Of a DNA stretch of 64,000 nucleotides, positions 52,947 through 57,174 are shown in pieces (positions within the stretch are counted from its first letter, which is position 1; each line of letters opens with the position of its first letter). The stretch comes from Paludibacteraceae bacterium (lineage in GTDB: Bacteria > Bacteroidota > Bacteroidia > Bacteroidales > Paludibacteraceae): positions 124,001-188,000 of the forward strand of contig JAKSKX010000001.1 in the NCBI GenBank assembly GCA_024401535.1. The letters are read 5' to 3'. A program made the position numbers and the translations under genes. Below the pieces are notes generated by a model. The model was not told the DNA's origin. It made no database searches and saw only the letters and a list, made by a program, of their open reading frames with translations.

Positions 52947-53251
52947 TCACTTGCTGTATTTCTAATCATAGAAAGATTTGTCAAGGAATGACAATTTGCA
53001 TTTTTATAATGGTTTGTATGGAGTTTTATTTGTCTATTATCTTTTTTTTTATGTTATAATTCTCCTTTGATTTTCAAATTGAAGTTTTTTGTATATCTGT
53101 ATTTGTTCCTTGAAATAACAAGTGTAGATTTTATGTTTGTTATTCCTGTTTCCTCAAATAACATTTGATTTTGACCTTATTAAAGGATTAACAACCATTT
53201 TATATTTGTTTTTTACGGACAAATATATCTGGTATATAAAATGTTATAATT
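52947..53251. other. Very AT-rich spacer upstream of the ncRNA candidate
   Basis: About 300 bp, strongly T-rich, with no frame or hairpin I can support. It separates the map operon from the RNA and methyltransferase module. Confidence 0.5.
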
Positions 53252-53282
53252 TTTGATAATTATAGAATTATTGTTATTTTTG
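53252..53282 (+). promoter_or_regulatory. Consensus promoter of the ncRNA candidate
   Basis: TTTG at 53252-53255 and TATTTTTG at 53275-53282 (then C), 19 bp apart. The match to the Bacteroidota consensus is as good as any in the window. Transcription would start near 53289. Confidence 0.75.
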
Positions 53283-53287
53283 CATTG

Positions 53288-53583
53288 CAGATACGTTTTT
53301 GCGTCTGCTCTTCCGTCAATTTTAGGGTTCAGTTGACAGAACGATTACATACGAACCCATAATAAAGCATTAGCTATAATTCGCGTTCAAACCAAAAAGC
53401 CTGAGAAACTGATTTGATTTGAAAATCGGATAGCAATGTTCACGGAGACGCTTGTAGAGTGACTTCGTACCAAACTCAAATGTTGATGCTCGCACCTTTG
53501 GTGTGGGCTTCTATGAGTTTGGGCGGGGTTTCATCTCAGGCTTCCCCGTGAACGCGAGTAGAAAGGTCCGCACCTTTCTTTTT
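53288..53583 (+). ncRNA. Candidate structured non-coding RNA, about 295 nt
   Basis: No protein frame fits, yet the sequence is full of paired segments bounded by a promoter and an intrinsic terminator. Stems seen: GCAGA/TCTGC hairpin at 53287-53308; GGGTTC (53325-53330) with GAACCC (53353-53358); CTGATTT with AAATCGG (53409-53429); CAAACTCA (53471-53478) with TGAGTTTG (53514-53521), enclosing GCTCGCACC-TTT-GGTGTGGGC (53488-53508). Two long-range helices cross: AGCCTGAGA (53398-53406) with TCTCAGGCT (53534-53542), and GTTCACGG (53438-53445) with CCGTGAAC (53546-53553), so they form a pseudoknot or alternate. I could not fit it to RNase P, tmRNA, SRP RNA or 6S RNA. It could instead be a long 5' leader with an attenuator for the methyltransferase gene. 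Confidence 0.6.
53560..53583 (+). terminator. Terminator ending the ncRNA candidate
   Basis: Perfect 8-bp stem AGAAAGGT-CCGC-ACCTTTCT followed by T, 46 bp before the methyltransferase ATG. Confidence 0.85.
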
Positions 53584-53593
53584 GCCGGTTGTG

Positions 53594-53626
53594 ATTGATA
53601 GTCGGATGCGAAATGAGACTATCAAT
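53594..53626 (+). promoter_or_regulatory. Inverted repeat abutting the methyltransferase start codon
   Basis: TTGATAGTC (53595-53603) and GACTATCAA (53617-53625) form a perfect 9-bp repeat, extended by an A-T pair, around a 13-nt loop. It ends 2 bp before the ATG at 53629 and covers the place of the ribosome site. It could be an mRNA hairpin limiting translation or an operator bound by the methyltransferase itself. Confidence 0.6.
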
Positions 53627-53628
53627 TT

Positions 53629-54777
53629 ATGGCAACGAGAAATCTTGACAATGCTAAAACTGCAAAGAATGATGAGTTCTATACGCAGTATGCAGACATA
53701 CAAAAGGAGATTAACGCCTACCTTGAATACAATCCGGATGTGTTTCGTGGCAAGACGATACTTTTGCCTTGCGATGATCCGGAGTGGAGCAATTTTACAA
53801 AATTCTTTGCACAGAACTTCGAGGAGTTCGGTTTGAAAAAACTGATCTCGACAAGCTATGCACCAGAGAGCAAGAAGATAAAGAGTTGGCAACCAACACT
53901 TTTCGAAACTGAATCACCATACTATGATGTTGATAAGTCGAAAACAAATGGTAAGATTTTTATTCTTGACCATGACACGAATAATAGTGGTACGATAGAT
54001 TACGACGACCTTGAGTGGCAATACCTTGAAGGAGATGGTGATTTTCGTAGTGCAGAGGTGAAGGCTTTGCGTGACGAGGCTGATATTATCATTACAAATC
54101 CACCATTCTCTTTGTTTAGAGAGTTCTTGGCGTGGATAGTGGAAGCAAACAAGAAGTTTTGTATCATTGGTAATCAAAATGCCATTACATATAAAGAGGT
54201 TTTCCCATTGATTAAGGATAACAAAATGTGGTTGGGAAAGGGGTTCTCTGGAGGAGCAACTCATTTTATTAGTTTCTACGAAGACATTGCAACGGCAGGA
54301 AATCATAAAGAAGGAATGATTCGAGTTTCTGGTGTTGTTTGGTTTACAAATCTTGATCATGGTCGCCGACATCAACCTCTGCAACTGATGTCAATGGAAG
54401 ACAATATCAAGTATAGCAGGCATAAGGAAATAAAAGGTATAGGTTATCAAAAATATGATAACTATGATGCAATAGAAGTACCTTTTACGGATGCAATACC
54501 GAGTGACTATGAGGGTGCAATGGGCGTACCGATTACTTTTTTAGATAAGTATTGTCCGGAACAGTTTGAATTATTAACTTTAAGTGTCGGAGAAGATTTT
54601 ATTACCCCTAATAAATTTTATGAGCAGTTTCGAGACCCTAATTCATTGAAACTTAATAATAATAAAAGGGATTGGTGTCTTTATGTAAAATCAGATTCAG
54701 GAAAGAATTTAACATCAGAGGGATATCGTGTCGAAAAAATTTATGCTCGCATTATAATTCGCAGAAAACAAAACTAA
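53629..54777 (+). CDS. EcoRI-family adenine-specific DNA methyltransferase
   Basis: A 382-residue S-adenosylmethionine-dependent N6-adenine methyltransferase of the MT_EcoRI type. It starts MATRNLDNAKTAKNDEFYTQYADI, whose later part (NDEFYTQYxDI) is highly characteristic, then LPCDDPEWSNFTKFF, DEADIIITNPPFS (catalytic motif NPPFS, residues 157-161), FCIIGNQNAITYKEVFPL and GVVWFTNLDHGRR. The recognition sequence cannot be read from the protein. No cognate EcoRI-like nuclease is present; instead a DUF262-HNH gene follows after 6 bp. The pair is probably translated from one mRNA and looks horizontally acquired relative to the housekeeping genes around it. Confidence 0.92.
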   Translation: MATRNLDNAKTAKNDEFYTQYADIQKEINAYLEYNPDVFRGKTILLPCDDPEWSNFTKFFAQNFEEFGLKKLISTSYAPESKKIKSWQPTLFETESPYYDVDKSKTNGKIFILDHDTNNSGTIDYDDLEWQYLEGDGDFRSAEVKALRDEADIIITNPPFSLFREFLAWIVEANKKFCIIGNQNAITYKEVFPLIKDNKMWLGKGFSGGATHFISFYEDIATAGNHKEGMIRVSGVVWFTNLDHGRRHQPLQLMSMEDNIKYSRHKEIKGIGYQKYDNYDAIEVPFTDAIPSDYEGAMGVPITFLDKYCPEQFELLTLSVGEDFITPNKFYEQFRDPNSLKLNNNKRDWCLYVKSDSGKNLTSEGYRVEKIYARIIIRRKQN

Positions 54778-54783
54778 AACCTT

Positions 54784-55947
54784 ATGAAAACGCAATTAAG
54801 AACCGACATTACCATAGCCGATATCTGCAAAGGGTTTGTATATAACGAACTTGAAGGCAAAGGTTTGTTCGGATTGGATGGTAAGTTGACCATTCAACCC
54901 GAATACCAGCGCAACTATATCTATGCAGACGGCAAAAGGGATGTGGCGGTGATTGACTCAATTATAAAAGGCTATCCGCTTGGTATTCTCTACTTCAACA
55001 AAGTAGGGGAAGATAGGTACGAGGTTCTTGATGGGCAACAGCGCATCACCTCTTTCGGCAGGTATGTGACAAAGAAGTTTGCAATCAAGGACAGCAATGG
55101 ACTGGAGCAGTATTTCAATGGTCTGCCAAAAGATTTGCAGGATAAAATCATGCAGACTCCGTTGCTTATCTACATCTGCGAAGGTGAAGAGAGCGAAATA
55201 AAGGAGTGGTTCAAGACTATCAATATAGCAGGTGTTCCACTAAAGGAACAGGAACTGCTAAATGCAATCTATTCAGGTCCGTTTGTTACGCTTGCAAAGG
55301 CGGAGTTCTCTAACTCGCAAAATGCAAATGTGCAGAAATGGAGTGCCTACATTTCGGGTTCTGTTATTCGTCAGGACTTTCTGCACACCGCCCTTGATTG
55401 GGTGAGCAAGGGAGAGATTGACAATTACATGAGCAGTCATCGTCAAGACACAAACATCAACGAGTTAAAGGCATATTTCACAAGTGTCATTGACTGGGTG
55501 TCAACTACCTTCAATAGCGTAGAGAAGGAGATGTGCGGACTTGAGTGGGGGCGATTGTATGAAAAATATCACAATCAAGCGTATAGCTCTGATGATATAG
55601 ACAAAAAGGTCAAGGAATTATACGGTGATCCATACGTTAAGAATAGAAAGGGTGTGTTTGAGTATGTTCTGGGCGGTTGCATAGAACATAAGCTGATTGA
55701 GGTTCGAGTCTTTGACGAAGCAACAAAGAAATCTGTCTATGCAAAGCAAACAAAAGTAGCAGAGGCAAACGGTCATTCAAACTGTCCTTTGTGTGCGTGC
55801 GGAAGCAATTCAAACAAGACGCGAATATGGAAACTCTCTGAAATGGATGCCGATCATGTTACTGCATGGAGCAAGGGCGGAGCAACTGATGCAAGTAATT
55901 GCGAGATGCTCTGTGTTACACACAATCGAGCGAAAGGAAACAAATAG
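54784..55947 (+). CDS. DUF262-HNH nuclease
   Basis: A 387-residue protein. The N-terminal DUF262 domain has PEYQRNYIYADGKRDVAVIDSII followed by the ParB/Srx-like motif VLDGQQRITS (about 85-95). The C-terminus (about 336-385) is an HNH nuclease with CPLC zinc knuckle, DADHVTAWSKGG (catalytic His) and NCEMLCVTHNRAKG. DUF262 proteins with nuclease domains include the GmrSD-type modification-dependent enzymes and other defence nucleases, often NTP-dependent. Next to a DNA methyltransferase this suggests a restriction-like system, but its target and whether methylation protects or marks DNA are not known. Confidence 0.88.
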   Translation: MKTQLRTDITIADICKGFVYNELEGKGLFGLDGKLTIQPEYQRNYIYADGKRDVAVIDSIIKGYPLGILYFNKVGEDRYEVLDGQQRITSFGRYVTKKFAIKDSNGLEQYFNGLPKDLQDKIMQTPLLIYICEGEESEIKEWFKTINIAGVPLKEQELLNAIYSGPFVTLAKAEFSNSQNANVQKWSAYISGSVIRQDFLHTALDWVSKGEIDNYMSSHRQDTNINELKAYFTSVIDWVSTTFNSVEKEMCGLEWGRLYEKYHNQAYSSDDIDKKVKELYGDPYVKNRKGVFEYVLGGCIEHKLIEVRVFDEATKKSVYAKQTKVAEANGHSNCPLCACGSNSNKTRIWKLSEMDADHVTAWSKGGATDASNCEMLCVTHNRAKGNK

Positions 55948-56040: not shown

Positions 56041-57174
56041 ATGTTAAAAAAGATACTTTTCATATTATTTTCGGTTCTTGCGTTGATGTCATGCGACAAG
56101 GAAAAAGTGCATAGCGAGTCTCCCGTGGAAAAGACCACCATCATGTTTTTCCCATGGTCAACCAACCTCAAGACTTGTTTTCTGCAGAACATAAACGACT
56201 TTCATCAGCTAATCAGAAATAACAGGCTGAATAATGAAAGGGTTATGGTATGTATGGAAACTTCTCCGGGGGAAGCGTCTATAATGGAAATTAAGGAGGA
56301 GAAGATTGTCGATGTAATGACGTACAAGGATCCTTCCTTTACCACTGTTGAAGGAATATCGAATTTTCTGAACCTTATACACAAAAATGCTCCAGCCAAG
56401 AAGTATTCGATGATTGTCGGTTGTCATGGAACGGCATGGCTGCCTGCTGTAGAGACAAGTACAAGATGCTCCTTTTCAGATGAATCAGAAGTTCCTTTGA
56501 CAAGGTATTTCGGCGGAACAACAAAGGAGTATCAAATAGAGATTCCTGTATTCAGGGAGGGAATTCAGAATTCCATGATTCCAAAGTTTGAGTATATTCT
56601 GTTTGACGACTGCTATATGGCAAACATTGAGGTTGCCTACGAGTTAAAGGATGTGTGCAACCATATTGTTGCATCCCCGACAGAGATTATGGCGTATGGT
56701 TTTCCATATCATTTGTGTGGAAACTATCTGATTGGGGCTGTAAACTATGAGAATGTTTGCAACGAGTTCTATAAGTTTTATAGCAAATATTCAATTCCAT
56801 GCGGTACGATTGCTGTGGTTGACTGCAGTGAAATTGGTAAACTTGCAAGTATAATGAAGGAGATCAATTCATATTCCGCTGAACTTGACACGCTTGATAG
56901 CCCTATTCAGAGAATGGACGGATATGTGCCAACTCTGTTTTATGATTTCGGGGATTATGTGGATCATTTGGTTATTTCCGATTCGTTGAAGCATGAGTTT
57001 GGTAACCAGTTGAGCAAAGTTGTTCCGTACAAGCGCAGAACAGAGAGCTATTTCTCGACTTTTGAGGGTGTTATTCCTATCAAAAGCTATTCTGGTGTTA
57101 CAACCTCCTTTCCTAGCAACCATCCTCTTGCCGCAAAGATTGTGAATACAAGCTGGTACAGGGATACGCATTGA
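56041..57174 (+). CDS. Clostripain-family (C11) cysteine peptidase lipoprotein
   Basis: A 377-residue lipoprotein. The signal peptide ends ALMSC with Cys18 lipidated. The caspase-like core has the catalytic His129 in VGCHGTAW and Cys191 in FDDCYMANIE, followed by ASPTEIMAYGFPYH, the pattern of clostripain-like C11 peptidases. C11 enzymes of gut Bacteroidales cleave after basic residues and some activate toxins. Location would be the cell envelope. It has its own -7 element and is separated from parA by a regulatory region. Confidence 0.9.
   Translation: MLKKILFILFSVLALMSCDKEKVHSESPVEKTTIMFFPWSTNLKTCFLQNINDFHQLIRNNRLNNERVMVCMETSPGEASIMEIKEEKIVDVMTYKDPSFTTVEGISNFLNLIHKNAPAKKYSMIVGCHGTAWLPAVETSTRCSFSDESEVPLTRYFGGTTKEYQIEIPVFREGIQNSMIPKFEYILFDDCYMANIEVAYELKDVCNHIVASPTEIMAYGFPYHLCGNYLIGAVNYENVCNEFYKFYSKYSIPCGTIAVVDCSEIGKLASIMKEINSYSAELDTLDSPIQRMDGYVPTLFYDFGDYVDHLVISDSLKHEFGNQLSKVVPYKRRTESYFSTFEGVIPIKSYSGVTTSFPSNHPLAAKIVNTSWYRDTH

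Follow-up and report, generated by a model that had tools for sequence, protein, structure and literature searches.

The locus and its transcript

The window analyzed here is a 64,000-nucleotide stretch of a Paludibacteraceae genome (2.96 Mb in 69 contigs), and it contains a structured RNA at 53366-53584 that is followed by an EcoRI-type adenine methyltransferase gene and then by a gene for a GmrSD_N(DUF262)-HNH protein, all on the plus strand. The first of these cargo genes occupies 53629-54777 (Pfam PF13651, E 1.4e-124; PADLOC MTase_II) and the second 54784-55947 (Pfam PF03235 and PF01844; PADLOC REase_II), and a clostripain-family (C11) protein gene, recognized with Pfam, comes after the module at 56041-57174. 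A sequence-only reading had described the RNA as an undescribed pseudoknotted transcript of about 295 nt running from 53288, with a consensus promoter, an intrinsic terminator and no coding frame, and that observation is confirmed as a whole: the RNA is real and belongs to a family, with covariation, whose folded RNA is about 210 nt long. Its extent is what changes, in that homology begins at about 53359-53366, which places the left edge of the conserved RNA near 53366 at AGCATTAGCT and not at 53288, and the transcript 5' end at 53288-53365, which carries a small hairpin at 53288-53307, is unconserved among homologs.

The promoter assignment holds. TTTTTG at 53250-53255 and TATTTTTG at 53275-53282, separated by a 19-nt spacer, form a Bacteroidetes-type promoter (53250-53282) of the -33/-7 kind, and among 73 loci, comprising the window and 72 further loci fetched with their flanks, TAnnTTTG is found 40-120 nt 5' of the RNA in 47, against 2.85 expected and a maximum of 8 in 200 mononucleotide shuffles; it is absent from that interval in 26. 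In two loci tRNA-Ala genes (L090:2959-3033 and L105:2944-3018) end some 43 and 67 nt upstream of the RNA, suggesting that certain copies borrow their promoter, and these leaders may be co-transcribed with the tRNA; at L111 the upstream sequence looks tRNA-like by eye, yet no tRNA was found there. A small hairpin like AGCGCAAAGCGTTGCGC recurs about 35 nt before the RNA in L083, L087, L089, L090, L092, L100 and others, and in one clade it sits near the left end of homology.

The lack of a coding frame is borne out as well, as the longest stop-free runs over 53288-53628 are 42, 26 and 46 codons and the ORF list of the window has no ORF of 60 or more amino acids wholly within the element; a plus-strand TTG ORF starts at 53582 and a minus-strand ORF overlaps from 53536 on. 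The minimum free energy of the window RNA is -102.7 kcal/mol (z = -5.85), and none of 200 shuffles was equally stable.

Conserved fold and covariation

A covariance model, R1, was built from 16 copies with the window copy left out, and it scores the window copy at 102.8 bits (E 2.4e-24). The conserved core spans 53376-53558 and holds highly conserved nucleotides. Pair counts across homologs support P1 (53381-53388/53550-53557), P2 (53399-53405/53535-53541), the apical hairpin P6 (53488-53496/53500-53508) and a pseudoknot (53441-53445/53546-53550), and constrained folding gives P3 (53409-53415/53423-53429) and P5 (53470-53478/53514-53522), with a small P4 also within the core. Two crossing helices had been proposed for this RNA, at 53398-53406/53534-53542 and 53438-53445/53546-53553, and both are present and kept in homologs, but that account omitted P1, which shares 53550-53553 with the second helix. 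Also missing from it were two further pairings, in which 53564-53574 can join 53500-53510 as an alternative and 53366-53374 can join 53482-53490, and the hairpin at 53594-53626.

Covariation was counted in a MAFFT alignment of 58 of the 73 copies (A1) that was made without using structure, and that left out eight near-duplicates (at least 93% identity) and, by choice, L066, L112 and L114 with long insertions, the divergent L073 and L104, and L106 and L111 for no special reason. Over 37 pairs, drawn from P1, P2, four pseudoknot pairs, P6 and the hairpin before the start codon, 96.1% of 2075 cells are standard pairs and 22 pairs show double changes, with 173 double-changed cells against 42.5 in shuffles, and slid controls are only 30-40% paired. 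The compensatory changes that the sequence-only reading had named as a check are thus found. P1 is paired in 58/58 sequences at all eight positions, and P2, over seven pairs, is 99.7% paired with double changes at six of the seven; the pseudoknot is weaker, at 90.0% over the four pairs that do not overlap P1. A further alignment, A4, which was fitted to the structure and so leans toward it, gives 96.0% pairing over 51 pairs and 650 double-changed cells against 184. P5 is hypervariable: every one of its eight pairs occurs in at least three pair types, yet pairing is kept at 97.6%. In both alignments, then, the structure shows itself through compensatory changes, as in a cis-regulatory leader.

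Position 53551 has two partners, 53387 in P1 and 53440 in the extended pseudoknot. The commonest pair is T-A at both (45 and 44 sequences), followed by C-G (13 and 12); the shared pair types would fit a strand exchange between P1 and the pseudoknot, though they may stem from few events. A hairpin joining S8 and S9 (53524-53528/53544-53548) was considered as a separate conserved helix and dropped, since it is 71.4% paired, a slide of +1 gives 83.4%, and S8 fits better as the base of P5. Within the related leaders L026, L027 and L028, which are 91-100% identical outside the P5/P6 arm, the arm itself (about +98 to +157 from the RNA start) is 58% identical between L026 and L028, as if it evolved fast or were exchanged as a block.

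Distribution of the family

No Rfam family matches the window at its gathering score, and a search of 53150-53700 at E values up to 5 returned only the unrelated AgvB (16 bits, E 2.1) and snoR100 (14.7 bits, E 4.8). RNase P, tmRNA, SRP and 6S, to which the RNA had not been fitted by eye, likewise give no covariance-model match at gathering score, nor do Bacteroidales-1 and Flavo-1, and with the strong covariation this upholds the description of the RNA as undescribed. Literature searches, which covered papers and not their supplementary lists, found no paper on the RNA, and the family may lie in such lists, for example those of PMC8040213.

R1 matches all 68 sources given to it, of which the 16 used to build it match by construction; five of the 73 loci (L025, L030, L060, L071 and L079) were outside this test. 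With an iterated profile, 73/73 loci show a copy that is complete or almost so. The genome of the window carries a second copy, 75% identical, before a 944-amino acid MmeI-like gene. By BLAST, the RNA is present in 7/9 genomes of the genus and in at least 85/300 of the family, the window's own genome included in each; the latter is a lower bound, because two candidates per genome were scored, and on the same basis 215/300 are without a match. In the order, 19/295 genomes have an R1 match at E 0.001 or better, 12 scoring at least 39 bits and seven scoring 27-34 bits, and the three of these seven that were inspected (G363, G506 and G584) all resemble by eye a shorter relative described below. 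Among 296 genomes of the phylum only the window's own matches at E 1e-6 with the stricter Infernal filters. A phage or plasmid origin was considered and rejected: there is no match in 50,697 phage records (blastn, E 0.01) or in plasmid records, none of five IMG/VR pattern matches is the RNA, and a second viral pattern gave none. By these searches, the RNA is chromosomal and belongs to Bacteroidales.

Genes downstream of the RNA

Downstream genes were classified in a cargo set of 135 loci. This set joins the 73 loci to 12 loci of other families in the order and to 50 R1 matches, out of 51 obtained when 85 pattern loci were scanned; L263, which is cut by a contig end, and 39 pattern loci (L285-L323) lie outside it. 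The set contains 121 distinct copies, which still include near-identical ones from related genomes. The longest ATG ORF starting 20-150 nt after the RNA was labelled by BLASTP against 13 representatives with Pfam labels, and this gave 78 EcoRI-type methyltransferases, many followed by an HNH gene, 25 genes assigned to other classes and 18 unlabelled. The other classes are acyltransferase-3 (8), sulfatase/EptA-fold (5), glycosyltransferase 2 (4), MmeI (3), N6-methyltransferase/HsdM (3), GNAT (1) and glycosyltransferase 1 (1, with a Pfam score below cut-off), so that type IIL and type I restriction-modification, acyltransferases, glycosyltransferases and phosphoethanolamine-transferase-like genes are all represented. 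For the unlabelled cargo, Pfam identifies ResIII at L078, where it lies in a later gene, and an HTH gene at L112, with no match at L095; by eye only, L078, L164, L173, L174, L235 and L241 resemble other restriction-modification or helicase genes, L237 a deacetylase, and L240 is CotH-like, and at L066, L074, L238, L260 and L284 either a long ORF or any sequence is missing after the RNA. A 309-amino acid protein is encoded between the methyltransferase and HNH genes in L079, L082, L084 and L086, and Pfam identifies the L082 copy as Fic-family with an HTH.

The proposed association with the methyltransferase module therefore receives a mixed answer. Seen from the methyltransferase, it is close: 25/30 listed EcoRI-methylase loci (30 of 53 matches in 101 genomes of the family) have the RNA within 100 nt upstream at E below 0.001, it was not found upstream of the methylase match at E 0.001 in L334, L336, L350 and L356, and in L346 the match begins 29 bases from a contig end. 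Seen from the leader it is not, as 43/121 have no labelled EcoRI-type methyltransferase next. What is near constant is position. The gap from about the P1 end to the start codon has a median of 68 nt in the 109 copies with an ORF of at least 150 amino acids, 78 of which fall at 60-85 nt, with 28 shorter and three longer, and most of the shorter gaps reflect an additional ATG, in frame, ahead of the usual start, such as MQKLSIAMAGNK at L027. A gap of the median size would hardly accommodate a promoter of its own. Location at a nearly fixed site ahead of genes, with a promoter-like element upstream in 47/73 loci, is what is found in a cis-regulatory leader; the cargo varies, unlike that of an RNA partner of a single effector (ToxIN-like or omega RNA-like).

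At two loci the cargo has been swapped behind a kept leader. Compared with L027, L026 is 83-100% identical over the 300 nt before the RNA and 96-100% in the RNA, falling to 58% in a 60-nt junction block and to 31-40% beyond it in the ORF, whereas compared with L088, which lies in another genome and context, it is 35-46% identical upstream, 55-81% in the RNA and 85-91% in the coding region. In L021 the leader seen in L020, L022 and L023 is retained (78-100% in the RNA), and an acyltransferase replaces the methyltransferase and HNH genes. An empty site for the L024 locus exists in G007 (L133, G007:C9), from which the inserted unit can be seen to start roughly 330 nt upstream of the RNA and to end with the stop codon of the HNH gene; it is placed directly after the stop codon of a neighbouring gene and ahead of the sequence that follows that stop in G007; AAATAA is common to both edges of the unit. 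For the window's own locus there is no empty site at the DNA level.

Alternative pairings before the start codon

Strand 4, here called T (53564-53574), lies immediately before a T-run at 53575-53584 that is a candidate intrinsic terminator, and T duplicates the 5' strand of P6 (in the window GTCCGCACC against GCTCGCACC), so it can pair with strand 3, which is the P6 3' strand plus two bases (53500-53510). This pairing is possible in 58/58 sequences with at least nine pairs, with a one-base bulge in several. In the window it is worth -18.8 kcal/mol, compared with -14.3 for P6 and -8.4 for a terminator-like local hairpin that T can join instead (53560-53567/53572-53579). Across the family the mean duplex energy is -16.7 kcal/mol with a copy's own T, -13.9 (sd 0.32) with the T of another homolog and -6.4 with a shuffled T, and none of 50 homolog-swap permutations reached the own mean, though shuffles and permutations, here and below, ignore relatedness and may inflate significance. 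Clades in which T has changed have a matching P6 3' strand, as in L107, where T is UAUACUCAC and the P6 3' strand is GUGAGUAUA. An attenuator-like pattern is thus observed, in that P6 and the pairing of its 3' strand with T beside the T-run are mutually exclusive and conserved in 58/58 sequences. The intrinsic terminator of the earlier description survives in part: the local hairpin and T-run are present, but that hairpin varies across the family, judged by eye.

A further pairing involves the conserved AGCATTAGCT segment S1 (53366-53375): its first nine bases (53366-53374) can bind the strand 5' of P6 (53482-53490), at -11.4 kcal/mol in the window. It has at least nine pairs in the window and many copies, and its family mean is -7.98 kcal/mol against -6.95 for homolog swaps (0/100) and -3.11 for shuffles; some subclades, among them L061, L070, L083, L102 and L117, have a weak pairing of about -0.4 to -7 kcal/mol. 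Taken together, the S1, P6 and T pairings give the 1-2-3-4 order of an attenuator. Between the T-run and the start codon lies a hairpin at 53594-53626 (ATTGATAGT...ACTATCAAT, -13.0 kcal/mol), which in the 58 homologs (GATTGATAGT...ACTATCAATC) is paired in 95.6% of cells and is mostly invariant; the canonical form is found in 53/74 methyltransferase leaders and 21/35 other leaders and is absent from 21/74 and 14/35. A pairing of S1 with this hairpin was seen by eye and dropped.

A shorter relative

Weak R1 matches led to a shorter leader-like RNA, measuring about 160-180 nt with the T-run included, in several Bacteroidales families (L175-L179, L181-L184, L194-L196 and L199-L203). By eye it shares S1, P1, P2, a long P5, the apical hairpin and a T before the T-run with the longer leader, whereas P3, P4 and the pseudoknot are not seen. 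Most of 15 downstream proteins look secreted or lipoprotein-like by eye, the exceptions being L176, L194, L199 and L200. Rfam gives no match at gathering score in L175-L179 and none at E up to 1 in L179. The pairing of the P6 3' strand with T averages -15.4 kcal/mol with the own T, -12.6 with homolog swaps (0/200) and -6.7 with shuffles over 15 copies, means that include L175 and L183, where a wrong strand was taken for the P6 3' strand and its flank, and the near-copies L194 and L199. The S1 pairing shows no excess over homolog swaps (-10.2 against -10.07 kcal/mol, 68/200 as good). The short RNA is a possible parent class of the long leader.

A candidate attenuator and its rivals

That the RNA has this fold, this place before genes and this varied cargo is seen by comparison of homologs. 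We consider that it is probably the 5' untranslated leader of the methyltransferase/HNH mRNA, and a member of an attenuator-type family of gut Bacteroidales controlling restriction-modification and envelope-modification genes, because of its near-constant position before unrelated genes, its covariation, the promoter-like element upstream and the cargo swaps. The interpretations offered from sequence alone are supported in part. The description as an undescribed pseudoknotted RNA ahead of the module is upheld, and of the three roles that were proposed a sensor or attenuator leader is the best supported, on the P6 and T pairings and on position; the other two are taken up below.

The conserved pairings suggest a transcription attenuator with a second, pre-start-codon hairpin. 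Transcription would begin near 53288 and the core would fold as P1-P6 with the pseudoknot, with S1 able to pair with the strand 5' of P6 (1:2), P6 itself forming 2:3, and the P6 3' strand pairing with T before the T-run (3:4). With P6 whole, T would hardly take the P6 3' strand and polymerase would read on. If instead S1 held the 5' strand at its base, the 3' strand would be exposed there and offer a toehold from which T could displace the 5' strand, and the resulting 3:4 helix would end transcription at the T-run, with the pre-start-codon hairpin as an additional translational gate. We infer from the pairings that 3:4 would terminate and that S1 would be the toehold opener, and likewise which state would be the default; the core may bind a signal, either a metabolite or a protein, and this signal may concern phage attack or envelope state. 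A conserved core and switch-like pairings are observed, and should the pairings act as an expression platform the arrangement may be that of a riboswitch. Against an attenuator, the local T hairpin, at -8.4 kcal/mol in the window, could be a plain constitutive terminator, and P6 itself is stable and local. A loop of about 53 nt is also unusual for the stem of a terminator. A broader proposal, possible and in our view rather doubtful, is that this is a new class of signal-sensing RNA with a dispersed anti-phage regulon, which would sense attack or envelope stress and release restriction-modification, O-acylation, glycosylation and phosphoethanolamine-transfer genes, its shared sequence letting defence cargo swap behind a ready-made switch.

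Several other explanations were weighed against the attenuator-type leader. A small RNA acting in trans, about 295 nt long and ending at the T-run, with the downstream gene expressed by read-through, would account for the promoter-like element, the T-run and the compact conserved fold, but a near-constant distance to the start codons of unrelated genes, and a conserved hairpin between the T-run and the start codon, are unexpected for a free small RNA, and we regard it as unlikely. The switch of identity in L026 from L027 in the RNA to L088 in the ORF, the similar case of L021 at a second locus and the empty site for L024 could mean that the leader works mainly at the DNA level, as a homology or folded single-strand site for cargo swaps, with RNA folding secondary. 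This seems quite unlikely given the covariation, G-U pairs included, found in the counts over 37 and 51 pairs, and the promoter-like element upstream of the RNA, and swaps can follow from shared sequence without being its function. The compact pseudoknotted core and its highly conserved nucleotides would also suit a ribozyme or an mRNA-stability element that is not a switch, which we judge very unlikely, as it leaves the sustained match of T to the P6 3' strand unexplained.

The two remaining interpretations had been raised from the sequence of the window. A dedicated RNA partner of the DUF262-HNH protein is suggested by the 78/121 copies that precede EcoRI-type methyltransferases, many with an HNH gene next, and it is contradicted because the same leader also precedes 25 genes of other labelled classes and stays in place where the module is replaced; we reject it as most improbable. 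An independent housekeeping RNA is not supported, because its copy number varies, 215/300 genomes of the family were unmatched by BLAST with two candidates scored per genome, and its spacing to the start codon is near constant.

Comparison with known regulatory RNAs

Transcription attenuators use 1-2-3-4 pairing, in trp-type leaders and in riboswitch expression platforms. The leader described here resembles both in having mutually exclusive conserved pairings, the last of them beside a T-run, in a 5' untranslated region, and it differs in its large pseudoknotted core, in strands 3 and 4 lying 53 nt apart, and in its restriction-modification and envelope cargo. ToxI-type RNA adjoins a defence protein gene, and in the same way the leader lies just 5' of one, but it has no tandem repeat at 53150-53700 and its cargo varies. 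ToxI-type RNA is named in PMC8040213.

In PMC2864571 the crcB and pfl motifs are described as conserved RNAs overlapped by predicted terminators, with crcB in potential 5' untranslated regions of varied genes. The overlap with a predicted or candidate terminator is shared by both motifs and the leader, and the variety of downstream genes by crcB (PMC2864571), whereas the leader has no Rfam match to either and has restriction-modification and surface-function genes downstream. The same paper lists Bacteroidales-1, Flavo-1 and 6S-Flavo, which like the leader are Bacteroidetes RNAs and to which it has no Rfam match even at E up to 5, and has a table row for GUCCY-hairpin without an Rfam accession (PMC2864571). 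Within the searches made, the leader family and its set of target genes appear to be new, and an attenuator-like leader is a known kind.

Restriction-modification genes require careful control, and to our knowledge the timing of defence and surface change in Bacteroidales is largely unknown. If the attenuator-type reading is true, a single structured leader would be a common control point for unrelated defence and envelope genes, and its sequence would serve as a tag by which new genes for defence and surface modification could be found. Exchange of cargo behind a regulatory RNA that stays in place could also be tested in this system.
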